From positions 6,381,264 to 6,445,263 of the forward strand of contig OW203722.1 of NCBI GenBank assembly GCA_934045075.1: a DNA stretch of 64,000 bases, given 5' to 3'. The notes beneath the pieces were generated by a model. The model did not search any database, was not told where the DNA came from, and saw only the letters and a list, made by a program, of their open reading frames with translations. Source of the stretch: Yponomeuta sedellus (Eukaryota > Arthropoda > Insecta > Lepidoptera > Yponomeutidae). Every line of letters begins with the position of its first letter. Positions within the stretch are counted from its first letter, which is position 1. Position numbers and translations under genes: made by a program. Shown piece after piece: positions 7,019 to 58,613 of this stretch.

Positions 7019-7198
7019 TATACCCTCAGAAAATTTCACTTTTATAATATTAGTGTAATCTGATAGTCTGATGGTTGTGATGTGATATCGCAAATTGTAT
7101 CGTAATGACATTGTAAGATGTCCCATGGCAATACCACATGGAAGAGAACATTTTAATGAATGAAGTTCTCATTTTATTTCTTTCAAATCATAATAAGA

Positions 7199-7410
7199 AG
7201 TCCCTGCCTGTACGTAATACGTTGAATATTGTACAGGGGTTCGAAATTTTACTAATGCCGGTGAGTCGCCCATTAGCTCAGTTGGAAAGAGCGCTGGCAC
7301 GGATGGCCAGAGGTAGCGAGTTCGAATTCCGGCATGGGTGGAATTTTTAACCTCTAAATAGGTTTGTTAAAATTGTCCTTAGCCCGGGTTAGTGCATTAA
7401 AAATAATATA
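7199..7410 (+). repeat. SINE family A copy
   Basis: The tRNA-like part (7267-7340) folds as a cloverleaf: acceptor CGCCCAT/ATGGGTG, D stem GCTC/GAGC, anticodon stem CTGGC/GCCAG, T arm with TTCGAAT. It is preceded by the TTCGAAAT block and followed by CCTCTAAATAGG and AGTGCATTAAAAA. Position 33 is C rather than U and the copy is embedded in a repeat, so it is not a working tRNA. Confidence 0.85.
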
Positions 7411-12403: not shown

Positions 12404-12709
12404 TACTATTTTTATTTTTAATGCTCTAACCCGTGCTAAGGACAAATTTAAAAACCTATTTAGAGGCTAAAAATTTCACCCATGCCGGGATTCGAACCCG
12501 CAACCTCTGGCTATCCGTGCCAGCGCTCTACCAATTGAGCCAATGGGCGACTCACCGGCATCAGTGAAATTTCGAACCTCTTTACACTATTCTCTGTATT
12601 ACGTACAGGCAGCGACATCTGGCTTAAGCAAATTGCATCACTTACAGCCCCGACTACCTACTTTGCAGTTAGGTTTTACATCGGAACGATATAACTGTAC
12701 CCACATGAT
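12404..12709 (-). repeat. SINE family A, full length
   Basis: This is the longest uninterrupted copy: ATTTTTAATGCTCTAACCCG tail block, CCTATTTAGAGG, the tRNA-like part (cloverleaf as at 7267), the TTCGAAATTTCACTGATG block, GCCTGTACGTAATACAG and a 5' end ending CACATGATT. It is joined directly to an opposite-strand copy. Confidence 0.88.
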
Positions 12710-12804
12710 TGGCTCAATTGGTAGAGCGCTGGCACGGATAGCCAGAGGTTGCGGGTTCGAATCCCTGCATGGGTGAAATTTTTAGCCTCTAAATAGGTTT
12801 TTAA
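12710..12804 (+). repeat. SINE family A, 5'-truncated, inverted partner
   Basis: It starts at TTGGCTCAATTGG of the tRNA-like part and runs to CTCTAAATAGG. With the preceding copy it makes an inverted dimer. Another fragment, 12058-12107, holds only ATCATGGGTGG..TTTAAATAGG. Confidence 0.85.
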
Positions 12805-13167
12805 GTAATATTATATTAATACTAAAAAAGTGACGCTAAAACAATAGATACTGTAAATTAGTATTATCTAGCAAAAGGTTCCTCTACAACTTAGTTCAAA
12901 CTTAAGTGAGCTTACAAAATCCTTATAAATGCTTTATACACAAAAATAACTGTAACAAATTAATAACTTATGTACGTAGATAGGTACCTATCTACTCTAC
13001 ATGTTATGATCTACATTCATTATTTGTTGCTGCATGCGTGGTTTCTCGTATTAGGCGTCCGTTGCGTTTTACTTAATAGATAATCGCGATTAGACCCATT
13101 TAAAATCGTACACACGCCACGATAACAAAACATATTACTACATAACATTTATTTACATTTATTATTT

Positions 13168-25375: not shown

Positions 25376-28300
25376 CTGAAAAGAAAATCAATTAAATTAA
25401 TAAGATATCCTTTATTGTATTTCATGGGACCTTGGATGGTCACCGAAAAACTGATGGTCAACGAGGTGCAAAAGTGGAGAGCACGAACTGGCAAAGGCAG
25501 CGTAGGAAGCCTATTACCCCACTGGGACGACGATCTGAGCCAGATTGCTGGCAGAGGATGAATGAGGATGGCCAAGGACAGAACAGAAGTGGGTGTACTT
25601 TGGGAAAGACTACGTTCTGCAGTGGATGAGTACGGAGTGATTGATTGAATATTTCATTTCGTTCAAAGTGTTAATGAAATAATGCACAACCTAAAAACCG
25701 CGTCTTTATCATCATCAACCCATTACGTCCCCACCGAGGGGCATGCGTCTCTTCCCTAAGGAAGGTATAGGCCATACTCCACCACGCCAAGTCCGGATTG
25801 GTGGAGGTTTCTTTATATCGATATTTAAACCATTTAGGTCGGCTTGCACCAACGCTATTTGACTGCACTATTGATCTGTTTATTCATGGTTAAGTTCAAT
25901 TCAGTGAATTAAAAGGCCAAATCTCGAGTTCAATTAACTTATAGAATTGAATTTTGCTATATATTTAAAATATATGTTAAATGTATATATGTATATGTAA
26001 TATATGTATATATGCTATATATGTAAAAGGCGACTAAGGGACACAAACTGAGGAGTGGGCAGCAGCGCCCCCTGCAGTACAGTTCCACCAAACTGCGATC
26101 CCCAACCCGCATGCCCAGCGTGGGGATTGTGGGCATTACCCCCCAATGATGGCACAACCTTGCGCTATTGCTCTCATTAGGGGAGGGCTATGTCCAGCAG
26201 TGGACTAGTATAGCCTGGAGAAGAAGATATATTTATGTGTATGTCTATGCAATTTTTATTTTTTCATATTTACTTTATGTAGTTTATTTATTTGTTTTAA
26301 AGGTATGACAGCGGTGGTAGCTCAGTGGGTAGAACCATAGACTGGCAAGCGAGAGCCCCAGGTTCGATCCCGAGTGCGGGCATGTACCAATGACTTTGTT
26401 TAATTTCAAAGTTACGTACATTTGCGAATTTGCAGTCGCAGTACCACACGCTAACGGTGAAGGAAAACATCGTGAGGAAACCCGCGGCTTGGTTGGCTCC
26501 GCACGTATTGACTAGTCTTTCCTGTGGGCTAGGCCGACTAAGCTGTCAGGATGGTATAGGTGCTGGGCCAGCCTATACCATCTATAAAACCTTGACCCAG
26601 GCACTACAGCGTCGGAGTGGTCCCTTCACCCATCTAGTGTGAGTGAAGATACCACTGGACGCTGTATAAATCATCTCATTAAGTAGATGCAAAAAAAAAA
26701 AGGCCAATATTATAGGTATGTAGGTTATTTACGATTGATGTAGTCTATTTTGTGCACATAAATAGGCGACTTTTTACCGCCCTCTAAGGTTTACTGGAAG
26801 AAATATCTTTCAGAGATGAGTTGTTAAATGTTTCGTTTGCATAAAAGTTTCAATCGTATTTTCTGAGTAATTTATTTAAAAACCTATTTAGAGGCTAAAA
26901 ATTTCACCCATGCACGTAAGGCAAAATCATGGCTTTACGACGACAAAAGTAATAAAAACAAACTCACCGAAATACACTTATTTCTAATGCTAAATGCTCT
27001 CAAACCTTCAATGAATAAGAATCAACAAAAGATTTTTTATTAGTGAGCGCGACCCGTTTACAAAAACCGCTATTGTTCGACCCTTCCGCTTTTTACGAGG
27101 CGTGCAGCCAGTATTGTACGAAACTCAGTTCGAATACATTGTGTCCATGTGCCGTTGTCTTGAAGTGAAAACTTGTTTTTAGTTATGGATGCGTTACCAT
27201 GTTGTAAGTACTTTATTATAAACCTATTGTTTATTTATTTTAACACTGTTTAGATAAAGAATTATCTTAATATGTCCATAGACTCAAAATTATAGTGTTT
27301 TTCTTTAAAAAAATAATTCGTGAAGGCTTTAGTAAAAAGTTCCAACGAGTACCAGTTTAAATTGTATGTTGATCATTAGGCCTGAATGTTGTTATTATTA
27401 GGTAACTGGTTCTATCTGCACATATCTGCACATCTTTGAGTATTTGTTGTTTTTGTTGCAGGTAGTCGAGATGATTCCGGGGAAGTGCCAACTGTTAGGA
27501 GACTAGAACTATATTTAGTTTTAAAAAGCGAAAGCTTTTTTAAATTGTCTTCGTCAAAATGTATTGAACGATTATTCAAGTATATTTTGAATAAATTTAA
27601 TGTTGAAAAATGTGCTGCAGACATTGAAAAGTCGGCCAAATTGACAATTAAAGTGTTTGTAACAAAGTTATTTGCAAAATGGAAACATTGCCATCGCATC
27701 CATGACAGACTGATTAAAAATCATCACGATTGGTTAAACGCGGAGTTCAAAGTTCCGAACATAAGCGGAGACCAACAAATACCTAGTAAAAAACCGGTTC
27801 CAGGTAGACCAAAAAAGGATTTCGTGGCCTCTTCGTTGCGTTCTAAACAAAGATCTGTGCAAACTCTTGTGCAAAATATTTCACCGGAAACACTATCTTT
27901 TGCAACTGAATCCAGCTTAATTAGATCAGGAAAACGCAAAGCTGCTAAAGTTATGAAATTAGCCCTAGAGTCATCACCAAGAAGTTTGAAACGAATGCAG
28001 CAGTCAAAAAGCAACTCGCCCTCCTGTACACCATACACACCTGTGGAAGCGGTTGCTCTTATTGTTGACACGAGTATGACGAAAGAAGACTACATAAAAG
28101 TACAAAGAGGAGCTAAATCTAGAGGTGCTAATATATATCCTGCCTACAATCAAATCTGGCAAGTTAAACAAACCTGCTATCCCGAAAATATAACTGTTTC
28201 GGAGATCGAAGCCAGGATTCCTATGCAAAACTTATTGGACCATACAGTCACAAGACTATTCGAAGTGCAACAAGAAGTTATTTCTCTTCACCTTCCCCCA

Positions 28301-31300
28301 GAAGTATTTGAAGTTGATGTCTACTATAAATGGGGGCTGGACGGCAGTGGTGGGCACAGCCTTTATAAACAGCACTTCGCAAATAGTCCGAAGTACTCTG
28401 ATTCGAATATTATCTTGAGCACTCTTGTTCCTCTCGAAATATCTATAATACATGAAGACAAAAAAATAATATTTTGGAAAAACCCGAGCCCATCATCGAC
28501 AAAGTGGTGTCGTCCTATAGGTTTCAAATTAATCAAAGAAACCAATGAGACCATAAAACAAGAATTCGATGCTACTGAACGACAGTTGCGAGCTATTACA
28601 TCAACAACAGTAAGCCTCCAAGAAAAATCAATCACATTTAATCATGTTCCAATTTGTACAATGATGGATGGCAAAACATGCAATGTTCTTACACAAACTG
28701 CATCATCCCAAGCATGCAATATTTGTAAGGTGACTCCGAAAGACATAAACAACTTGGACAAAGTCTTAGAACGACCCTGCGATACTTCGGCCTATAAGTA
28801 TGGAATATCCATTTTACATGCCTATCTAAGGTGTTTCGAATTTCTTCTGCATATAACATATAAAATTGATATCAAACAGTGGCAAGCTAGAGGCACAACA
28901 TTAAAGCATCAAGTTAAGGAGAAGAAAAAAATTATTACGGACTTATTTTACGAGAAGATGGGCTTAGTAGTGGACCAACCCAAGCAAGGAGGTGGAAACA
29001 CGAATGACGGCAACACGGCACGGAAGTTTTTTGAAAGTCCAGAGATTGTTTCTGAAATTACTGGACTTGATAAAGAGTTAATTAAAAGGTTCTCTAATAT
29101 CTTAAAGACAATTTCAAGTTGTCATTACATTAATATAGAGACTTTTAGAAAATATTGCATGGAAACGGCAAGGAAATGCATTGAATTATATGGATGGTAC
29201 AAAATGAGTGCATCAGTCCACAAGCTGCTCATCCACAGCAGCGACATTATAGAATCGCTACCTTTGCCTGTGGGTCAGCTATCCGAGGACGTATTAGAAG
29301 CCTCTCAAAAGGAATATAAGAATATACGACTGATGCACTCAAGAAAAACTTCTAGAGTTAATACAAATACAGATATTTTACACTGGCTATGTATTAACTC
29401 TGATCCTCTGATAAGTCAGCATCGACCAGTGAAAAAAAAACAAATGCAAGCATTTAATAATGTTATTATGAATATGCTCACGATGCCAACACACTTCAGT
29501 AGGAATCAGAATGAGGAAGACGATGACGAAGAAGATGATTTATAATGTAATTTTTAATAAAAATCGGTTTTTAATTTATTTGGTGTTCTTTCTTTTAAGT
29601 ATACATACGTACATACATAAACTAATGCATGAGAAATTTAAATATAGAAATATACATTTCAATATATTAAATGTAATCTACTTATAGGCAGGTAGGTTAG
29701 GTTTCAAAACGTCAAACTATTTAACAAAGGTAATAACGGTTCAATATATGTATCAAAAGCATAATTGTAATAAATTTTGATCATAAATATTTTTGTCGCC
29801 GTAAATCCATGATTTTGCCTTACGTGCCATGCCGGGATTCGAACCCGCAACCTCTGGCTATCCGTACCAGCGCTCTACCAATTGAGCCAATGGGCGACTC
29901 ACGGCATCAGTGAAATTTCGAACCTCTTTACAATATTCTCTGTATTACGTACAGGCAGCGACATCTGACTTAAGCAAATTGCATTACTTACAGCCCCGAC
30001 TACCTACTTTGCAGTTAGGTTTAACATCGGAACGATATCACTGTACCCACATGATTACACTATTTTTATTTTATTGTCTGTGGGCAAATTGGGGCGAGGA
30101 GGAGTGATTATGTTGTAAGGAATTATTTATTTAATGTATCCTACTGACGATGACAGGCGAAGTCTTCCACTCCTGGGTGCCAATTCTCACTTCATTAGCA
30201 AATAAGTCGTATACGACTCTGAGGCGTATGACTTGAATTCTACATAAAAAATCGAACGAAAACCAAAATCTGTATTCTGAACGCTAAACGACATTGAATT
30301 TAAATGAGAAAATAAATGTCTAATGTCTGCCGAGTTATCTGTGAATCATACATTCCTTTTCTCGATCGCGACATTATGACACCTCAAAGCAAGCGAAATT
30401 CTTCAGAAAATTTGCTCATACGACTTGTAAGCATATGAGAAACGGAATTTTATCCGACAAATGTCTAATCCTTCGAATATTTTGCGTTTAAGCTTTCAAT
30501 TCGCACGGGCGAGAATCAGCTCCCTGCTTCCCACCTTGTCGTATTCTTACTTATCTTGCCCGACAAAATACTCACTTAAACAAATTCAACGTAACTAGCG
30601 ATCTGATAAGTAATTCAGTTAGTTACACTCTAGTGCGCCTTTTTCATCGAAAAAATTGTTATACCTAGAATATAAAGTTCAAGTCCAACTTTGTGCTGAA
30701 TTTATGTACATAAATCTAGACTCTAATGGCCTGGGAGCCGGTTTTCTGCTAATTACGACTCAGTATTACGGGACGAAAGGACTAAGTCCGAAATAACTTC
30801 TGTAATGCCTCTACGTTTGGGGATGTTTTAGGCAGACTACCTGTTTCATTTTGTCCGGGCCTCTATTTTCAGAATTAAATATATTTTATACGCTTTGTAA
30901 CCGAGAGAGTTGGCGTGACAAAGAAGAGGCCTATGCTCAGTGGTAGGCTCGATTTATGGGCTGGATAGATACATAATATAAGTATTGGTTTTGGAAATTA
31001 ACAGGTTTGTGTTTTTATGAAGCCGATAAACGTTCTACTGCAGAGCACAGCCCTTTTCTCTGAGAAAAAGTATCAGCTTAATAAATACGCATGCCCACAG
31101 CGGATAGGCAAATTGAAGCGTCGAGGAATTTGAACACCTAAGACGCTCAGGTTTTCTCACGACATTTTTCTTTGAATGAATGGTATTGCTACTGTAACTT
31201 CACAAATAAGATTTAACAACTTTAGGACACAATCAATTCTCATGGTCTCAAGCGTGTACACTGTAATATGGTAACCATGAAAAAACATGACAAACATGGA

Positions 31301-34300
31301 TATACAGCCGGACTACAAATGTACGGCCCACTGTAGGTATCGAAACCATGACCTTCGTGATAATCAGCCGTGATACCTGCTAGACTAACGAAGCTGTCAA
31401 ACTAAATACATCGTAAGTTCTGACTTAAAACCGGAATGGGATAAGCTCTTTCTTTTACATCGAATTCAATTAGATTATCAGCCCTCTTACTAAAATTCCC
31501 GTCTCTTATCTCCAGAGACATTAAGCTGGTTTTACCTCGCCTACGAAATCGCATGTAAACATAAGTAAAGTCATCGCTCTTCCCGGACTGTCTATAAATA
31601 TCAGCATTACTTATTCAGCTTCACACCAAATGGATTTACCTCCCTACTCAGAAAATCTCTTTTGGACCACACTGTATTAAGATATCGACAGAATCAAAAC
31701 GCCCATAAAAGTGTTATTTCTAAAAAACATGTGGATTCAAGTTTGTCTATACTTTAGTTTATTTTCATCAGTTTAAAAAAATATATATTTTTACGGATTT
31801 GCTGCTTTGGATTAACGCTGTATGATAGGTGGTGCTTAAAATCTGTAGGACTATATTTACCGAATAACTTGAGTAAATCATGCAAAACGAGTATTTCTAG
31901 GGCTATGTCCAGCAGTGGACTACATAATATAGCCTGAAGAAGAAGAAGAACACTATTTCTATCTATGTGTATCTCCATATTTGTGTCATGATTTTGGTTA
32001 ATTTTAATAAAAACAGGGTTACATATGACCCTTCTGGCATTGGTTTGCATTGACATTGTTTCCTCGATTGCTTTATAGAGTAAAAGTAAATGTCTGGATA
32101 TTAAAAGTATTCAATAAAATAGTGTCATACATGATACCTATAAAATCGGAAGTTCCGTTTTCACTATTCCAAAGTAACCTTTCGTTAGGTTGGCATCCCT
32201 GCGACAAAGTAAGGCGGGGTGCATCGATTACTTGGGTCAGATTTTGGGACAAGGACATGTAATTATTATTTGGTGATGTGTGTCGAAGTTTTTAATAAAA
32301 TCTGGTAAGTCTTCGATATAATTTTCGTAATTCTTTTTTGTATGCTTTCTCTCCCAAAACATTATCTTTTCCAGAAAACATGGAAATTTGGTCATTCTGA
32401 ATGGACTGGCATGTTCTGACATTACTTTGCAGCATATTTTAGTATTTTTTACCGATTACTCAAAAAAGAATTTATTGCATTTAAAGAATATTTTTAATCG
32501 TTTAATATCAACCCTTGTACCATTTTTTATCATAAAAAAATTAAAAAAACATAATAGGATATACTATTTTTATTTTTAATGCACTAACCCGTGCTAAGGA
32601 ACAAATTTAAAAACCTATTTAGAGGCTAAAAATTTCACCCATGCCGGGATTCGAACCCGCAACCTCTGGCACGGATAGCCAGAGGTTGCGGGTTCGAATC
32701 CCGGCATGGGTGAAATTTTTAGCCTCTAAGTAGGTTTTTAAGCATAACATGTTTACAAGGATTCAGCACAAATATTATTATTTATTATATGTCTATCAAC
32801 AACCCTATTTTTGTGGATCTTTCAATGATATCTGAGCCCTATCCATCACTTTAATACTTTTCTAAATTATTGGTCTCACCTCTAAACTGATCCTCCCACT
32901 CCTTCGCAGAGGAGACCTCATCAGGGGTAAGGTCGCTGACGTCATCATACTCCACGTCGCTGGCGGCTACCACGCCTGTCGCTAGGCCTCTAGTCGCGTC
33001 TTTGCCCGCGAATGCTGAGTAGGGACCGCCTGAAAGGAAACAGGGGCGGGTTTAACTTCGGGTTTGCTTAGAAAAATACATAGTTCAAGGTATTAGGTAG
33101 ACCTGCTCCTCGACTTTATTGTGTTCTAAATTGAAAGAAAGAAAGACATTTATTGGAACAAATTATCACATCACAGGAAAGAAAAGCATACCATTCATAT
33201 TAGCCCACGTAGTCGCAACACCACACGCCAATGTGAAGGAAAACATCGTGAAGAAACATCGCGGCTTGTATTCTGTATAAACCATCTCATTACGTAGATG
33301 CAAAAGGCCAATGTACCACTCATGGGTACCTACGTATATAAAAAACAACAACAATTCATATAAATACAAGCTAGGACAGGGCAAACTCAGAGCGTACATC
33401 GTGTGGTGAGTCAATGTTGGCACAAGGGCATCTGACTAAGTGTTGTGCTGAGGTTGTGAGCCCTCAGCGCTGGTTTTCAGTCAGTGCCCGCGGTGTATAT
33501 TACGTGGTAGTGCATAACACTCTATATTATAAAAATGAATCGCTGAATCTCTTGGTAAGCGCAAATCTCGAGAGCAGCTGAACCGATTTCGCTAATTATT
33601 TTTTACACTATTTTTTATTTTTAATGCACTAACCCGTGCTAAGGAACAAATTTAAATACCTATTTAGAGGCTAAAAATTTCACCCATGCCGGGATTCGAA
33701 CCCGCAACCTCTGGCTATCCGTACCAGCGCTCTACCAATTGAGCCAATGGGCGACTCACGGCATCAGTGAAATTTCGAACCTCTTTACAATATTCTCTGT
33801 ATTACGTACAGGCAGCGACATCTGACTTAAGCAAATTATTTTATTTTTATTATTTTTTTACAATATTCTTTGAAGTACGAGGATGGTTCTTACGGAGAGG
33901 AAAGTGAAAAAAAAAAAGAATCGACTGTTAGGCGGTACGAACAAAGTTCGCTGGGTCAGCTAGTTTAAAATAAGAACAATAATGTTAAAGAATAATAATA
34001 CTTCGTAATTTTTTTAATGTAGCCTTTTAACGTCCCACTGCAGGGCACATGCCTTCTCTTAGAGACAGAGTAAGGACTTAATTACCACGCGTGCGAGGTA
34101 TTTGAATACCTCAAACTCTCAAGTTTCCTCACGATGTCTTCCTTCACAGTTAGCGAATGATATTGCTACTGCAACTTCACAAATGTACATAACTTAGAAA
34201 ATAAAGTCATTGGTACATGCCGGGATTTGAACTCACGACCTACCAAAACAAAGGAAACCCTTGCGTCTGGAGTTTTAACGTACCTCAGAGCTTGCTACGT

Positions 34301-37300
34301 AACGTACTCGTACATAGCCCAATCATGAGGCTAAGTGCAGAAATCTCTGGTCTTACTAACTTACTAGTGTAATAGGACTGTTATTGAATACTTTTAATGG
34401 CAGTGAAGTTTTTCAGTGAAATATCTTGTTATTTTTATCGCAACACAAAAGTAGCTGGTTAGTGCATAACTATTAAAGTGATTGATAAGATACAATACGT
34501 GCTTACATGACTTAATAGGTAAAGATTGCGTTACATCAAAGTCTATTTAATAGGCTATTTAAAATATAATTAAGTAAGTTGAAGTAATGTTCTTAGTCTT
34601 GTTATAGTCTGTTGATAGAATTCGTACGCAGAAACTAAATATTCAGATTGATTTTAATTTAATGTTACAAAGGTCAGTTTTAGCTGGTTACTAATTAAAA
34701 CCAAGGTCCGCAATATACGAAGTACTTACTAAACTCAAACACTCATTTAAATGCAATTGACAGAAACGCCTGGGTCGCTTATCATAAATGTACAATTAAC
34801 AGTGTACTATGTCATTTGATGTTCACTGCGCAGGCAAAACTTCCAAGTTCCCGTTTTCTGGAGCCATTCCTACAGCACTGGTGCCACAGTGGAACTCGTA
34901 CTCGTAACTAACGCGTTGTGCGAAATGAGCGAGGCCAAAGAACAAATGAGCAAAAAACAAATGAATAGCTGTTTTCGATACTTAAATATAATAGCTACAT
35001 ATATTTATAAATTTGAATTTGGCGGATTTGGAATGCCCTTGTATGCCTCCACTGCTGGGGCACGGGTCTTTTCCTGCATCGCAGGAAGGTAAGGCCATAC
35101 TCCACCACGGGGGCCAAGTCCGGGTTGGTGAAGGATTGTAAGACAGTGGCGGGCCTTACTGTCTGAAGTTATCAAGCCGCCCATAAGGCCTCTGACGTGG
35201 CTTAACGACTGCCATTATATGACAGCCGGCACCAACGGCTTAACGTGCCTTGCGAAGCACGGAAGCGCTCGGAAAAATGCCACTAGCGGTAGTCACGGGA
35301 CGCTCACCCATCCTGTACCTGATCGCGTCTGTTGTTGTTGCTTAACCAATTGATTGATTCCAATCACTCCGTTTGCCTTGGCCACGAGCGCTTCAGGCGC
35401 GTTTCATATGACTATATTCAAAGTATTTTATGACTAGTATTAGTCTAGTATTATTATGCTATGTACATCGGAGTGGGATATCTACGTATATATTATGAAC
35501 TAGCTGTCTCAAATCGCCATAAGTCTCACTGAGAACTGTCTATCTATATCTAACTGTTTTAGTGCAATAGTTTTTATTATAAATAAGACCAAAAGAGATA
35601 TGTATCGTTCACGCTTGTCAGTAATATCAGTAAGATAAGATAACGTCACAGTAACAACAGTTTGGTTTACACAAACCATCGACAACAGCTTGACTTTTAC
35701 AATTTAGTTGCAAAGTGCCTATAACGCAAGAATGTAGTGCAAAATGCACGTATGTAAAGGTCGACGTGCCTTCGTGTTACATGCAAAATTGTTATAAAAT
35801 CGTCAAAATCTATTAAACGATGCTTTGCTAAGTTTCGCAAAGTATTTTTTTTTAACTAAAACTTTCGTAAGCACAACACATTGTAGACTTTTAGTCCGGA
35901 TTTACTTACGGGTGTTGTTATATCGGCGACGACGCGAACTCCGTCTCTGCTCACCATGATTAAGCTCTGCGAATCGGAGCGAAACCTGGTCGGACTTTTC
36001 CGATATAACAACACCCGTAAGTAAATCCGGACTAAAAGTCTACAATATTTTTTTTTACTTTTACAGTTCGGAGAATTATCACCTTACAAAATTATGCTAG
36101 TAGAAGAAATAGCTTACTAAGAGCTAATAACAGACTCCCGCCTATAGAATGATTCGCCTATAGTATTCTATAGAATGATTCGCCTATAGTATTAAAGAGT
36201 TGTGGTCAGTAAAGAGACATGCTGAGTCGGGCCCATTTCGGGGTCTAAATACTTAAAACTTTCCGATATTTCATTTTTTATGTTTTGTTATAACTTTGTA
36301 TAGTTCATTTTTGTGTTATTAAATTTTTGCCGCTGCCCGCATTTCGGCTGATATGGCGTTATCTTTTGACTTCTATTTTGTTGTATGAATAAATACATCT
36401 TTATTTCATTCTTTCTCTCTTTCTCTCTTTCTCTCTTTCTCTCTTTCTCTCTTTCTCTCTTTCTCTCTTTCTCTCTTTCTCTCTTTCTCTCTTTCTCTAT
36501 TTCTCTCTCTCTCTCTTTCTCTCTTTCTCTCTTTCTCTCTCTCTCTCTCTTTAAATACCAGGCTTGCATAGTTGATTGCAGATCTACTTTTAAATTACCA
36601 AGTACGATTAGAAACTGGAGTAAAAAGTGTAAAATCGTTATTCGTCACCGATTCAGTCCGTGCACTGGGCATGGAATGTTTTGAAATAGAACTGTAGGTT
36701 TTCTTAAATATTCGTCAGTATTTTTATGTTATTATCCCCAAATGTATTATTATTTTCTTTTTGTGTTTACAATTTCGGTTATAACGCAAAGCATGCACGG
36801 TTTAAAGCAATGTTCAAAATGTACAAGAATACAATATTAGGTTCCCTGTTTGGTTTTTCCAATTTATTTAATCTGTGGTTAACGGTGCTGGTAAGGCCTC
36901 CATTTGTACTATATTCTATATTATTTCTGTTACTGTAATTTCTGTGTACAGTAAAGACTATTCTATGTATCTATCTGGTGGTACAATTATATAACACTTT
37001 CAATTATTAAGTACCTAAGTATTCATTGTGCAACTGTACGTTTTCCTTTTAGATGAAAATATATGAAATAAATATTTTTTTCTGAACTTACTTATTTCCT
37101 ATAATAGTAAATAAGTAAGTTCAGAAAGACAAAGACTATATTTAGTTCATATTAAAAAAAAAAGTCGCTCTAATAGCGACATCTCTTTAAATATGAACCG
37201 AATATAATATAGTCTTTGATGTATACATGTTTGAGATGTCGCTGTTTCTGGTACCCACAACACAGGGTATCCTAGTGTGGGGCCAGAAGCAATGTATGTG

Positions 37301-40268
37301 CCTATATGTTTTATTATGTTGTTATATCCTGTCAAGAGAAGGACGTCTCTAAAGGTAGTTATAAGTTCAGTAAGAAATCGGTGAAACAAAAAGCTTTTCC
37401 ACTTTTTGTTTCTATTCATAAGTACCTACTTCAGTTTGCAATCATCCCGTTGTACGATACACAAAACATAGTAAGAATATAAACCCAATTAGTAATATTA
37501 CACCACAAACTATTGGTTGAATGGCTCCCTCTGAAACTTCGCAACATTCCCTTTCCCTAATCCGTTAATCCTATTCCTCACGAGTGATAACAAAGACAAG
37601 ATAAATACGTCCCTACGTCAATGGTTTTAGATTTCATTTTCCCACGAGATTGGCAGGTTGTAAGAAAACACGTGATTTATAAACAGCATACCTCAATCTT
37701 TTAATAACAGTAATTGAACGCTAGTTGTTGATACTGAGACTGTGGAATGGCATTGTATCTTCGCAGGAATGTACAGTCGCACATCAGCCTTTACTTACGT
37801 GCACTGTAATCAGTTACGGTGACTTTACAACTTGACCATAAGCAATAGTTGATGTGCTGTCGCCTGTACAATTTGTTATAGAAATTCCGCAAAACCTGCA
37901 AACTGTTACTTCCACTAAACTAAAATAAACAAACTCCACAGTTTTTACTCTATTTTCTTTTTAGGATTCCGTACATCAAAAGGACAAACGGAACCCTTTA
38001 AGGATCGCTTTGTGGTCCGTCCGTCCTCCGCCCTTCTGTCTTGCTAGACCCTTTATTTCGGTAATCGTATCGAGTTGAAATCAAAACCGTATACTCTGCC
38101 GCTTTATCACGTAACTGGCACTCTATCGGGTTAAGCATTTAGACAACTCCAAAGTGTCAAAATATGTATGTCATTCACAGTTCAGAGTAGACCAAATCAG
38201 AAAACTCCATACAGTGCAGGATTAATATGTGTTTACAGGCCAGGTCTACAATTGCTTGAAGTTGAGAAAAAATCAAACTTCTATATTAACGAAAGGAGGA
38301 GGTTATCGATTCGACGCGTATTACTATTTTTTTGAAATCCTCTAATATAGTTACGGCCGTTTCTGTCGCAAAAAACCTATCTTTTGAGACTCAAGAGAAT
38401 TTAACCGAATAAATCCGATGTTAGCCGAACAAGCCCCGAGACTTGCTCCGCAAATCCTTTCTTCGGCGTCGTGCGTCTCGTTCATTCATAGAACTTTACA
38501 CAGTGTGTGACTGAGTAAGAAAGATTAGTTTAATATTTCGGAGATAAAGAAAGAAACAAAAGAAAAAAAGAAACACAGATGGTACCTAGTTGACCGAAAA
38601 TTAGATTGTGATAAAATTATATCATATTATCATCTATACCATAAAACACCCACAAGTTATCATACAAAATGAGTTCTTTTTTCTATAGGTACATACTTTA
38701 CTTAAACTCACGTGTGAAATCCGGAGGGGTAGGAAGAAAAAAATTTCATTTTATAAAGTCTCAAGAGTATGAAAATTTAAATTTCTATCCTTATAAAATC
38801 TTGTTAGATTTAAATGTTCCATTAGCTTTTGTATGTTTTATGAATGATAAAGATAATAATTTCATTCTGCATCCTCTCTATTGTGACTAACCGAATCCTA
38901 GTAACTATATTATCATCGTTCAGTCCACATCGTTTTCTAATTCGTGTCCACCACATAAGTTGTATTTTCTTACCCCAGTCTCACTCAATCTCAACATATA
39001 CCTATACATTATTCATTTAAAACACAAAATGAAAGTCAAAGTTGCTAGTTTCACAATTAATAGATTATATAGAAAAGAAAGTAACAAAGAAACTCCAAAA
39101 TTCTATTCCAAAACATATTTAACTTAATGAAGTTTTCAACTTAAAATTATATTGTTACCTTATATAACCAATTTGCAAGACTAACTCTAAAATGTTTATT
39201 TATTGCATTGCCATGGTGACATGAATCGAATAAACGGATTCTGTGACGGTACCTACCTACAAAATTCGCCGGGACAGCTATTTTACCATACAGTACTCGT
39301 AAAAGCGTGTTTTAAACCCTAAAGCCGACTAAGAGGAAATAGTGGGCTCCTTTTACCTATTCTTAGCCCCCTGTCAAATAATAATTTCTTATTATCTCGA
39401 TACTCGATTACGCAGTAGTCAAAGGGTATGTTACTCGTAATGAACACTTAGTTATTTAGTTTAAAAAATAATGAAAGTCACCATGATTGCACAAATAGAT
39501 TGATAACACCTATAATTTATCACAATAACATTCCTTTGGAACAATTAATAACTCTTGGCTCTTGTTCTGTACTACCTAACAGTTATATTCGAATGACACT
39601 GAGATTTCCAAACAAAGCAGTCGGCATTATACCTAAATTATTGAGTAACTATTAACTGTATGTACACGATTCATATATGGAATTTTTCTTAAATAATCTA
39701 GACTCCCGCTTCAGACAGGGACCTTCTCTCAGAGAGTGGCGAAACAACTGTCTTACCAAACCTAGTACAAAACAAACTTCTTGTCTGACTAGCACTTGAA
39801 ACATCATAGTTAGTTAGCCTGATCACAAAAACACCAAGGTCAGCACGTTTACAGTCGTCTAAGCCACGAGGTTTTCCTCCACAGTAACCAGATACAACAC
39901 AGAACCTTGATAATAATCACCTCCATCTTTAACTGCGCGTCCATTCGCGACGCCGCCGCCACCATCATAAAAACTCTCTTACCTGGCCCGTAAAAGCGCT
40001 TCCCCCGAGTGACATCAAAAATCACGCCGTTCACAGCCAGCAGGACTCTACCATCGTCTTGGGTCCCATCAAACTTCCTTAGCTCAGCGACTGTGAGATC
40101 CTTTCGGAGCTTGGGCATTGGCGGCGGTGACGGCGGGACATACACATCTCCTTCAAACTTAGACTTTATGATCTTATAGACAAGGTACACTATCAGGAGA
40201 ATGAGGAACAGATTCAACGGACTGGTGACTTCGTCCCACATGGTCGCTTCTGGCACTTCTGTCGACAT
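25284..40268 (-). CDS. PGRMC: Membrane-associated progesterone receptor component (PGRMC/MAPR), three exons, complete
   Basis: The CDS joins 40268-39983, 33029-32880 and 25375-25284 on the minus strand and gives 175 residues. Both introns have GT..AG ends and compatible phases (split codons Gly96 and Glu146). An acidic N-terminus is followed by one membrane segment (about residues 18-34), a Pro-rich linker (45-52) and a cytochrome b5-like domain (about 57-158). FYGPGGPY (92-99) holds Tyr93 and Tyr99, matching human Tyr107 and the haem-ligand Tyr113; Lys147-Tyr148 match human Lys163-Tyr164. The acidic tail contains YSDDE. Family members bind haem at ER and other membranes and support P450 enzymes and sterol metabolism. 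The start is the first in-frame ATG; only a GTG lies upstream in frame. The length is slightly below vertebrate PGRMC1 (195). Whether it corresponds to PGRMC1 or PGRMC2 is not resolved. Confidence 0.93.
25422..25640 (+). pseudogene. LINE (RTE-like) ORF C-terminal fragment
   Basis: The frame reads KWRARTGKGSVGSLLPHWDDDLSQIAG, a stop, then MRMAKDRTEVGVLWERL, a degraded copy of GRPxxRWxDDLxxxAGxxWMRxAQDR. It lies in PGRMC intron 2 close to the exon 3 acceptor, on the opposite strand. Confidence 0.6.
25690..25815 (-). repeat. Family E-like SINE 3' piece
   Basis: CATCAACCCATTACGTCCCC, CCTAAGGAAGGTATAGGCC and AAGTCCGGATTGGTGGAGG. Related to 7836-7890. Confidence 0.6.
26036..26229 (+). repeat. LINE 3' end F
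   Basis: GGGCAGCAGCGCCCCCTGC, CCCGCATGCCCAGCGTGGGG, GGGGAGGGCTATGTCCAGC and a GAAGAAG tail. Preceded by an AT dinucleotide-like tract at 25960-26025. Confidence 0.7.
26307..26709 (+). repeat. SINE family D, full length
   Basis: The tRNA-like head GGTGGTAGCTCAGTGGGT..CCAGGTTCGATCCCG is followed by the GTGAAGGAAAACATCGTGAGG block, a middle with GCTGGGCCAGCCTATACC, the tail GACGCTGTATAAATCATCTC and an A10 run. It is the most complete copy; partial ones are at 5385, 33195, 34105, 46500 and 63345. Confidence 0.85.
26913..26951 (+). repeat. Transib 5' terminal inverted repeat, 23-RSS-like
   Basis: The end reads heptamer CACGTAA, exactly 23 bp of spacer, then ACAAAAGTA. V(D)J signals have CACAGTG, a 12- or 23-bp spacer, and ACAAAAACC. 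The three essential bases CAC are kept. Confidence 0.88.
27185..29545 (+). CDS. Transib transposase (RAG1 core homologue)
   Basis: A mini-exon 27185-27203 (MDALPC plus one base, donor GTAAGTAC) joins 27462-29545 (acceptor TTTGTTGCAG) in frame, giving 700 residues, the size usual for Transib. Likely catalytic residues are Asp300 in KWGLDGSGGHS, Asp409 in MMDGKTCNVLT, and Glu in SEDVLEASQ (best candidate Glu619), aligning with RAG1 Asp600, Asp708 and Glu962. CNIC and HKLLIH match the RAG1 zinc ligands (CxxC and HxxxxH). DGNTARKFF corresponds to NGNFARKL of RAG1. The C-terminus is acidic (EEDDDEEDD). There is no internal stop or frameshift. The protein should cut next to its CAC-ended repeats through hairpin intermediates, as other Transib transposases do. 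Confidence 0.94.
29556..29561 (+). terminator. Poly(A) signal of the Transib transposase
   Basis: AATAAA begins 11 nt after the TAA stop of the transposase, inside the element. Confidence 0.6.
29788..29826 (-). repeat. Transib 3' terminal inverted repeat, 23-RSS-like
   Basis: Read inward from 29826 on the minus strand: CACGTAA, 23-bp spacer, ACAAAAATA (7 of 9 matches to the V(D)J nonamer). It differs from the 5' end at three positions. Confidence 0.88.
30057..30900. other. No gene; intron 2 of PGRMC
   Basis: It starts with a possible second family A tail (ACACTATTTTTATTTT at 30057) joined head-to-tail to the copy before it. The rest is unassigned. Confidence 0.4.
30905..30970 (+). pseudogene. 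LINE ORF terminal fragment
   Basis: The frame reads WRDKEEAYAQW, a stop, then ARFMGWID, matching the end of the 59636-59835 fragment (EEAYAQQWASFMGWID). Confidence 0.55.
31020..31400 (-). repeat. Old SINE cluster
   Basis: 31034-31140 resembles repeat Z (CTACTGCAGAGCACAGCCC). 31138-31215 resembles the family D middle block. 31293-31397 looks tRNA-derived on the minus strand: A box TTAGTCTAGCAGG and B box GGTTTCGATACC. Confidence 0.5.
31899..31949 (+). repeat. LINE 3' end F, short
   Basis: GGGCTATGTCCAGCAGTGG followed by ATATAGCCTGAAGAAGAAG. Confidence 0.65.
31950..32562. other. No recognisable gene
   Basis: Intron 2 sequence. The overlapping short frames on both strands show no family features. 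Confidence 0.35.
32563..32741. repeat. SINE family A palindrome folded at the anticodon loop
   Basis: Arms 32607-32670 and 32678-32741 are 64 bp each with one mismatch. The 7-nt spacer ACGGATA is exactly the anticodon loop of the tRNA-like unit. Each arm carries the T arm, the acceptor 3' strand and the CCTCTAAATAGG tail. The minus arm continues out to the family 3' end at 32563. Confidence 0.92.
32880..33029 (-). CDS. PGRMC: PGRMC exon 2
   Basis: This 150-nt exon encodes residues 96-145 (GGPYSAFAGKDATRGLATG through WEDQFR), the core of the haem-binding region. The acceptor is TTTCCTTTCAG|GC and the donor is AGAG|GTGAG. It enters in phase 1 and leaves one base for Glu146. The open frame is too short to stand out alone; it was found by family similarity. 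Confidence 0.92.
33195..33315 (+). repeat. SINE family D, internally deleted
   Basis: GTGAAGGAAAACATCGTGAAG jumps straight to CTGTATAAACCATCTC and GTAGATGCAAAAGGCCAAT; the middle is lost. Confidence 0.7.
33521..33963 (+). mobile_element. Non-autonomous Helitron interrupted by a SINE
   Basis: It begins TCTATATTATAAAAATGAATC and ends GGGTCAGCTAG followed by T. A family A SINE (33605-33836) sits in its middle next to a TTATTTTTT-type tract. It lies in PGRMC intron 1. Confidence 0.82.
33605..33836 (-). repeat. SINE family A nested in a Helitron
   Basis: It runs from ACACTATTTTTTATTTTTAA to GACTTAAGCAAATT, missing the 5'-most block. It contains a complete tRNA-like part. Confidence 0.85.
34019..34250 (-). 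repeat. Repeat Z tail and SINE D-like head
   Basis: 34019-34070 has CGTCCCACTGCAGGGCACATG (as at 55660-55826). 34105-34250 has CTCACGATGTCTTCCTTCAC, GTCATTGGTACATGCCGGG and a B-box-like GGATTTGAACTC. Confidence 0.55.
34251..35029. other. No gene; PGRMC intron 1
   Basis: Nothing recognised. Confidence 0.35.
35030..35395 (-). repeat. SINE family E, full length
   Basis: One of the best-preserved copies: tail CCACTGCTGGGGCACGGGTC through CACTAGCGGTAGTCACGGG to the head CCAATCACTCCG..GAGCGCTTC. Confidence 0.85.
35848..36045. mobile_element. Hairpin MITE family G, copy 1
   Basis: Inverted arms 35881-35926 and 36000-36045 are 46 bp and identical (TTGTAGACTTTTAGTCCGG.., ..GGGTGTTGTTATATCGG). The middle contains CTCTGCTCACCATGATTAAG. 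Sequence left of the arm (AACTAAAACTTTCGTAAG) appears inverted to the right of copies 2 and 4, so the true ends are about 80 bp long. Confidence 0.88.
36158..36195. repeat. Short tandem duplication
   Basis: Two copies of a unit containing AGAATGATTCGCCTATAGTA. Confidence 0.7.
36408..36551. repeat. (TTTCTCTC)n microsatellite
   Basis: About 140 bp of pyrimidine octamer/tetramer repeat with few interruptions. The open frames on both strands here are repeat translation only. PGRMC intron 1. Confidence 0.95.
36552..37209. other. No recognisable gene
   Basis: 37081-37130 has a short inverted pair around AACTTACTTATTT / AAATAAGTAAGTT. Nothing else. Confidence 0.4.
37210..37315 (+). repeat. SINE family C, 3' part
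   Basis: GATGTCGCTGTTTCTGG, CACAGGGTATCCTAGTGTGG and CCAGAAGCAATGTATGTG. Confidence 0.75.
37316..39029. other. No gene; lepidopteran motifs
   Basis: 37962-38050 has the dispersed block GGATTCCGTACATCAAAAGG..CGGAACCC..GTCCGTCCG. 38285-38325 resembles 20368-20420. The 73-codon plus frame at 38669-38890 has no recognised features. PGRMC intron 1. Confidence 0.45.
39036..39160. repeat. Dispersed repeat H
   Basis: Pair of 16575-16725 (GCTAGTTTCACAATTAATAG, AGTAACAAAGAAACTCC, GTTTTCAACTTAA). Confidence 0.5.
39983..40268 (-). CDS. PGRMC: PGRMC exon 1
   Basis: This exon encodes residues 1-95 plus the first base of codon 96: start, membrane anchor, Pro-rich linker and the first half of the cytochrome b5-like fold (LLAVNG, FDVTRG, FYGPG). 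The donor reads CCAG|GTAAGAG. Reading through it gives an unrelated tail ending at 39849, so the longer open frame there is not the true product. Confidence 0.93.
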
Positions 40269-55984: not shown

Positions 55985-56233
55985 TCTTTTTGCTGCACTA
56001 ACCCGTGCTGAGGACAATTTTAAAAACCTATTTAGAGGCTAGTGCAAGTGATGCAAATTACTTCAACCAGATGTCGCTGCCTGTAAATAATACAGAGAAT
56101 ATTGTAAAGAAGTTCGAAATTTCGCTGATGCCGAGACTTGCCCATTGGCTCAGTTGGGGGAGCGCTGGTACGGTTAGCCGGAGGTCGCGGGTTCGAGTCC
56201 AGGCGTGGGCAGAATTTTTAGCCTCTATATAGG
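55985..56233. repeat. SINE family A inverted dimer
   Basis: A 50-bp minus-strand 3' tail (CACTAACCCGTGC..CCTATTTAGAGGCT) joins a nearly full plus-strand copy with a tRNA-like part (TTGGCTCAGTTGG..GGGTTCGAGTCC). Confidence 0.82.
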
Positions 56234-56242
56234 TTTCTTTTT

Positions 56243-56395: not shown

Positions 56396-56545
56396 GGGAA
56401 CGGGAAGAATTTGGGTTGGTGCTATTCTCTAGGCCGACACCACACCGCAGATAGGTTTATAAAAAGTATATTTGATGTAATCAATTAATACATGTCTATC
56501 AACAAAGGAGGATGATAACTTCCACAAGCTGCTATTCAACAAGCT

Positions 56546-57898
56546 TTGGTAGCCTTATGCAATCTCATCTATGAATTAGGTTTGGACATATCCTCCAGAA
56601 AAACGTACGTTTGCTTATTTAGCACAGGCTACAGACAACAAAATATTGAGATCAAAATAAATGGGCAAGTTATCGGGCAAGTTGAAATAGCGAAATACTT
56701 AGGAATGTGGCTTGATCGCTCATTGAGGTGGCGTAAACATATTAACGAGTTATACGAAAGAAGATTTAGTTTTAGTAAAATTTTTAAGGTGCTGGCCGGA
56801 CCAAAGTGGGGACTACATCCCAAACATTTAAGAAGGTTATACATTGCTATTATTCGCAGTCGGTTAGATTATGGATCTTTTCTCTATGATAGTGCAGGAA
56901 AAAGCCATCTATACAAATTGGACAAAATTCAAAATAGTGTCATGAGAATTATAGGAAGTTTTGTACGATCTACTCGGATACACGTTATGGAGAGCGAGCT
57001 GTCACTGCCTCCATTAAGTTTGCGTCGACGATATCTTTCTAGCAAATTTTGGTTAAAATCTAAGTCCTTTCTAAATAACTCATGCATTGAACTTTTGAAT
57101 AAGCTATCTCATTCGTGTCAAAACAACCGTTACTGGAATAATAAGAAAATACCTATATTAGTGACGGTGCACAATTCCCTTAATGATAAGCCTATACAGC
57201 AGAGTAATCACCTGGAAATGTTTACACTGGAAACTTGGGTGAGCAGAATCGATTTGTCAAGTGTAGTGCATTGTTCAATTACAGGGATTGATAGAGCGAA
57301 GACTAATTTTAGCCCTACGGAATTATGTGAAATTGTTATTCAATACCTAGTTGATACATATACAGGATTTTATAAGGTTTTTACTGATGGCTCTAAAGAT
57401 AGGGGGGGAATAGGAGCTGCCTTCTATGATATTAAGGCAAACATTTCCGCTAAATTCAGGGTTAGCACAGAAATATCAATAATGTTTGTTGACCTGGTGG
57501 CATTGGCTGAGGCAATATCTTACTGTTGTAGTGTAAATGTTAGCAAGTGTGTTATCCTTACAGATTCAAAAAGTGCGCTCCAACATGTGGCTCGATGTAC
57601 CTCTAGTTCTAGAGGTTCGCCGATAGCCTACTCAATTTTACAGATGGTCCTAAACTTTTTTAAATGTAAGAGGGTCATCAAGCTGCAATGGATTCCATCA
57701 CATGTCGGTATTTACGGAAATGATGAAGCGGACCGATTGGCTAATATTGCAATATCGGATGGCGATCCTACACCCTCCTTACCTTTCTATAATGATTTGT
57801 CACACATTGTGGAAGGAGTACTTCGATCATCGGTCGCTTACTATGGGAATTTGGTACAGGACTATTCAGTCACACCCAACACGTACTCCTTGGTTTGA
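56546..57898 (+). pseudogene. LINE ORF2: RT thumb and RNase H
   Basis: The open frame gives 450 residues. The first part matches the RT thumb (ELGLDISSRKTYV, VEIAKYLGMWLDRSLRWRKH, LYIAIIRSRLDYG). RNase H follows (about residues 275-405): FTDGSK (first Asp), LAEAI (Glu), LTDSKSA (Asp) and WIPSHVGIYGNDEADRLA (His and Asp), so the catalytic set is present. Frame is lost near 57850-57890; the protein continues one frame over. Confidence 0.88.
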
Positions 57899-58433: not shown

Positions 58434-58613
58434 AACATAACATTTGCATAGAAGCACACACATTGCTTGTGACCCCACACTAGGATACCCTGTGTCGTGG
58501 GAACCAGAACATATAGACATCCAAGACCTGGGCTTTTTTTGTCCCCAGCCGGGATTCGAACCGGGACCTCTTGCATGCTAGGCAGACGCGCTACCGCTGC
58601 GCCACAGAGGTCG
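58434..58613 (-). repeat. SINE family C, full length
   Basis: It carries the complete tRNA-like head on the minus strand (B box revcomp GGATTCGAACC, A box revcomp CTACCGCTGCGCCA) plus the body. Confidence 0.85.

Follow-up and report, generated by a model that had tools for sequence, protein, structure and literature searches.

Transib DNA transposons, whose transposases are related to RAG1, the enzyme that rearranges antibody genes, have terminal inverted repeats that start with CAC, like the heptamer of the recombination signal sequence (RSS), as described in PMC8355894, and the Transib that has been worked out both biochemically and structurally is HzTransib of Helicoverpa zea (PDB entries 6pqn, 6pqr, 6pqu, 6pqx, 6pqy and 6pr5). 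In moths, PMC4735498 gives 178 and 37 chimeric reads between Transib and baculovirus sequences for two types of sample from Trichoplusia ni, against 0 for Spodoptera exigua, and its authors inferred transposition for their insertions overall, on the grounds of target motifs and of junctions that are end-precise. For virus from S. exigua, PMC6983493 gives 51 unique chimeric reads with Transib. Outside Transib, endonuclease and transposase activity of the amphioxus ProtoRAG proteins is described in PMC7204232, and PMC9435367 reports polymorphic AanRAGL insertions in an alga. In the current work, a 64,000-nucleotide stretch of the genome of the moth Yponomeuta sedellus (contig OW203722.1, hereafter the window, in which all positions are counted from its first letter) was analysed, and a 2,914-bp element at 26913-29826 (+), delimited by its ends and by empty-site alignments, was identified with high confidence as a Transib DNA transposon of a lepidopteran genome that is full-length and structurally autonomous and whose family is distinct from that of HzTransib (39% identity). 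The element resembles HzTransib in having one transposase gene with an Asp-Asp-Glu (DDE) triad, a 5-bp duplication (PMC1852546) and heptamer-like ends (PMC8289069), and differs from it in length (3,518 bp in HzTransib) and in the size of its protein, which has 700 residues here versus the 489 deduced for HzTransib, both HzTransib values being those given in PMC1852546.

The element begins with a 39-bp 5' terminal inverted repeat (26913-26951, +) and ends with a 3' terminal inverted repeat of the same length (29788-29826, -). Both ends have CACGTAA as their first bases, and thus the RSS-heptamer-like CAC start of Transib elements. The two repeats match at 36 of 39 positions, with three mismatches (an alternative inverted-repeat listing gives 40 nt at 93%, one bordering base being added), and the best chance match among 20,000 shuffles of one arm was 23/39. 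Read directly from the sequence, CCATG stands on either side, at 26908-26912 to the left and at 29827-29831 to the right, and forms a 5-bp target-site duplication as is found for Transib.

The host DNA into which the element was inserted is a tRNA-derived, short interspersed element (SINE)-like repeat on the minus strand, now split into a left piece (26874-26912) and a right piece (29827-30056), the outer limits of both being approximate. In the tRNA-like part of the right piece (29827-29893), Rfam recognizes a tRNA that the insertion has broken (model positions 4-67). A query in which both flanks were fused and CCATG was retained once was then searched within the window, one-sided matches being excluded, and all 12 repeat copies elsewhere in the window that span the junction are gapless across the site, the top ones being located at 33650-33837 (99.5% over 188 bp) and 12446-12710 (97.4% over 265 columns). 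The 5-bp site is present once in each of these 12 uninterrupted copies, as CCATG in eight, CCACG in two, TCAAG in one and CAATG in one. Because the spanning repeat copies are uninterrupted, the boundaries of the element, its duplication and its arrival after the repeat are proven. Empty sites, which an earlier reading of this DNA (the sequence-only reading) had named as a check, are therefore present in paralogous form; they are not orthologous, and are silent on whether other individuals lack the insertion. The repeat itself is tRNA-Ser-like (anticodon GGA) and occurs in many copies (12446-12710, 33650-33837, 7196-7371, 56043-56236, 32605-32741, 12708-12813 and others), some of which lie near each other in opposite orientation (at 12.5/12.8, 32.6/32.7 and 54.5 kb), and the tRNA gene calls made by ARAGORN at 7266, 12475 and 33679 fall inside such copies.

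The transposase gene is predicted to consist of two coding exons. Exon 1 (27185-27203, +), which would specify MDALPC and the first base of the next codon, is followed by a predicted 258-bp intron (27204-27461, +; GTAAGT...TTGCAG) and by exon 2 (27462-29545, +), which includes the stop codon. Joining the two gives 700 residues with a single terminal stop and no frameshift. In the absence of the intron, the uninterrupted open reading frame (ORF) extends from 27485 to 29545, has a GTG start and encodes 686 residues, its first in-frame ATG being codon 157. The predicted exon join is favoured by the translations of four relatives (P0001, P0004, P0007 and P0011), in which a peptide is read through an AG-like acceptor at approximately the same place, as judged by eye and from proteins only. 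An AATAAA/ATTAAA-type polyadenylation motif, recognized as a motif only, is present 3' of the stop codon (29556-29561, +). No second stop-to-stop ORF of more than 121 residues is present in the element, which accordingly has the single gene of a Transib and no RAG2-like gene. A separate ATG frame of 11 codons (27147-27182, +) was noticed by eye to end just 5' of the predicted transposase start.

In the 700-residue numbering, the DDE triad is formed by D300 (D286 of the uninterrupted ORF; codon at 28340-28342, +), D409 (D395; 28667-28669, +) and E619 (E605; 29297-29299, +), located by alignment and translation, and is kept together with the CxxC (C425/C428) and HxxxxH (H593/H598) motifs. The three catalytic residues align with D126, D225 and E436 of HzTransib, as expected of a Transib triad (HzTransib residue numbers as published in PMC6941560; the numbering of the solved chain is offset by 17, as read by eye from the alignment). 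The transposase cores of the two proteins are 39% identical over 474 residues, and the predicted structure of the present transposase superposes on an HzTransib complex at 2.0 Å over 474 residues. Alignment with the solved HzTransib chain starts no earlier than residue 178-181, leaving approximately 180 extra N-terminal residues in the present protein, and in the tree HzTransib is a separate lineage, yet its branch is long and joins at an open fork. The sequence-only reading had described a structurally complete Transib with a perfect CCATG duplication, 39-bp inverted ends with three mismatches, one 700-residue transposase gene free of stops and frameshifts and the triad, CxxC and HxxxxH residues named above; this description holds in full, no catalytic residue being substituted, provided that the 258-bp intron, which it had left unstated, is accepted.

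A scan of the transposase against Pfam with E up to 1 returned no families. The same scan applied to four of its relatives found the RAG1 family in P0027 (above cut-off) and P0031 (below cut-off) and nothing in P0001 and P0003, and PF26100, a precomputed label on several relatives, was not recovered. Two proteins from public assemblies, P0001 (85-86% identity) and P0002 (79%), belong to the same family and have the N-terminal region and the catalytic set in common with the window copy, and the named carriers among 40 transposase relatives are the aphid Macrosiphum euphorbiae, the cockroach Periplaneta americana and the beetle Popillia japonica. The exact 20-base end pattern had no matches in collections of viral or prokaryotic contigs, in which an alignment-derived search found 12 and 45 stretches that fit a pattern of its own and none that encodes a relative; since both collections are viral or prokaryotic, these negatives say little on insects.

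Changes specific to the window copy were determined with P0001 and P0002 as references over 655 usable columns, conservation being taken from 22 other rows. Columns changed alone number 27 of 655 in the window copy, 38 in P0001 and 77 in P0002 (the latter count including the stem below the window copy and P0001), and all three differ in 25. The 27 changes of the window copy fall in columns with a mean conservation of 0.40, compared with 0.58 (sd 0.05) for random columns, a value as low being reached in 3 of 20,000 draws, and the changes on the P0001 and P0002 branches likewise lie in weakly conserved columns (0.47 and 0.43). This pattern shows selection along the lineage leading to the copy, and is not proof of its present function.

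Whether the copy is active at present is a separate matter from its identity. A functional transposase inserted the copy. The copy may still encode one, which is quite possible if somewhat short of probable, and an even chance is given to an intact-looking but silent copy, that is, one which is complete since it is young and which is inactive owing to silencing, faulty splicing or a subtle missense substitution. The latter explanation makes the same Transib identification and differs on present activity alone. Most genomic transposon copies are inactive, which counts in its favour, as do two of the 27 changes, Leu190Val and Val371Ile, conservative replacements at columns whose conservation is 95% or more; yet no damage was found in the ends, splice sites, frame, catalytic or zinc-binding residues of this copy, and its substitutions are distributed like those of a gene under selection. 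The intact frame and the avoidance of conserved columns would also suit a domesticated transposase gene, retained for a host function. Descent from active copies accounts for such branch selection equally well, however, and neither the inverted repeats nor the duplications are damaged, the insertion lies within a repeat and the complete catalytic set is kept, so that domestication is considered very improbable. That the element is no Transib but a RAG-like transposon of the ProtoRAG type, accompanied by a RAG2-like partner, is scarcely credible: such a transposon would share with the present element the RAG1-like core and, N-terminal to it, a region with GRP, but this reading is contradicted by the single-gene content, ProtoRAG and RAGL transposons (BbRAGL, 6b40) having a RAG2-like gene where none is present here, and the similarity to HzTransib is far above that to RAG1 or RAG1L. 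The core of jawed-vertebrate RAG1 (e.g. 5zdz_A), which is 17% identical where it is aligned with the transposase, is encoded by a host gene, whereas the sequence described here is a mobile element and lacks a RAG2 gene.

Several observations weigh against the reading of the locus as a complete and possibly working Transib. The Transib insertion preference is given as CGNCG in PMC4735498, and the single site CCATG (3/5 G or C) agrees with it, besides the free N, only at positions 1 and 5. No copies or relics of the element were found elsewhere in the window (blastn at E 1e-3, and a 22-base end with up to five substitutions), the closest protein relative is 86% identical with no near-identical expanding family in a collection that is clustered at 90%, and the start codon of the transposase rests on a predicted intron. 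That the copy is recent, as the sequence-only reading had it, is weakly shown, the mismatches between inverted repeats not dating a DNA transposon. Its further suggestion of a second working RAG1-like transposase is unsupported and its premise too narrow: because the activity of ProtoRAG, the polymorphic insertions of AanRAGL and the mobility of Transib in moths (baculovirus junctions reported in 2016 and 2020) are already documented, a working copy would not be the second. The element's particular family was not found in print by a text-based literature search, no search by sequence being made. As it stands, the locus represents a well-preserved and probably autonomous Transib copy of a lineage distinct from HzTransib, and both the presence and the mobility of this superfamily in moths were known before; it is an ordinary member of a known family and a reasonable, even good, candidate for a working copy. 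If active, it would place a full-length Transib with an N-terminal region beside HzTransib, and would help to sort the features of RAG1 end recognition that predate V(D)J recombination.

By analogy with the biochemistry of HzTransib and RAG, a transposase dimer would bind both ends of the element via the CAC-starting inverted repeats, nick beside the CAC and then form hairpins on the flanking host DNA. The element would thereby be released with blunt ends, its 3' ends would be joined to the target, and a 5-bp stagger at the target would be filled in to generate the duplication. Extra contacts, farther inside the inverted repeat, would probably come from the N-terminal GRP region.

The nonamer of the RSS has the consensus ACAAAAACC. 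At the 5' end of the element, ACAAAAGTA (26943-26951) is located inward of CACGTAA at a spacer of 23 nt and matches this consensus at 6 of 9 positions, and at the 3' end ACAAAAATA (minus strand, 23-nt spacer) matches at 7 of 9. Among the 1,543 CAC sites of the window, 33 reach 6/9 and three reach 7/9 at 23-nt spacing. The ends of the element do not count as two independent cases, and at its 5' end the nonamer match is better at spacer 32 than at 23. An A-rich, nonamer-like stretch approximately 20-23 bp inside the end is described for Transib in PMC8355894 (20-22 in most, 12/23 in some), and little or no nonamer likeness is described for the HzTransib ends in PMC8289069.

The protein has a GRP-bearing region (27803-28018, +; residues 107-178 of the 686-residue ORF) whose likeness to the RAG1 nonamer-binding domain is weak to moderate. 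A GRP motif is found N-terminal to the core in all 36 alignment rows with letters there. With HMMER, the GRP stretch reached 5.4 bits (i-Evalue 39) against zebrafish RAG1, which is not significant alone. With HH-suite, in which just two RAG1 sequences formed the other side, the GRP part scored 17.5 (probability 5.6%) against 14.1 (1.4%) for the best of 100 column-shuffled controls, and the GRP part with the following domain scored 23.7 (12%); at such low probability, this profile comparison is suggestive of a link to the nonamer-binding domain. For the predicted model, 10 of 31 listed RAG1 or RAG1L structures are aligned from residue 106-112 (root-mean-square deviation 6.9-8.1 Å), and the other 21 only from 181-183, the nonamer-binding domain being included in some of these (e.g. 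3jbw_A). Residues 1-95 are helical in the full-length predicted model, residues 1-178 modelled alone without an alignment gave a poor model (mean predicted local distance difference test score, pLDDT, 49.7), and a protein search with residues 1-178 retrieved four proteins, all among the relatives already listed. Because these HMM, profile and structural matches are weak or partial, the equivalence leans on PMC9435367, which reports a GRP-carrying, nonamer-binding-equivalent domain in both Transib subgroups, and by which such a domain in Transib is not new; in Subgroup II, moreover, alpha11-alpha12 of the zinc-binding domain are lost and the C-terminal tail is of type 2 (PMC9435367). It is unlikely that the copy is active today and that a RAG1-like nonamer-binding domain acts on the inner A-rich element 23 bp from the CAC end. 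If true, this would be a present-day Transib with the full RAG1 layout (GRP domain and core), unlike the solved HzTransib, and would allow the origin of bipartite signal recognition by RAG1 to be tested.

Elsewhere in the window, 39852-40265 (-) carries coding sequence for a membrane-associated progesterone receptor component, in the form of a cytochrome b5-like exon with a Pfam Cyt-b5 score of 20.3 bits, below the family cut-off of 23.7. Its best named match, which covers 65% of the query at 84%, is from Plutella xylostella. Among the 120 matches listed of 327, 36 carry an organism name, of which 32, including the top 29, belong to Lepidoptera and four to three beetles and a springtail, which places the host in Lepidoptera. 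The long open frame at 56519-57898 (+) includes an RNase H domain, matched by Pfam RNase_H at 1.2e-12, and is probably the end of a retrotransposon without long terminal repeats (non-LTR). A tRNA-Ala (AGC) called by ARAGORN and Rfam at 58540-58612 (-) is a candidate gene or repeat head. The open frame at 36288-36644 (-) is partly made of repeated Arg-Glu-Lys and represents a simple repeat, and the GC skew is negative around 36-40 kb.
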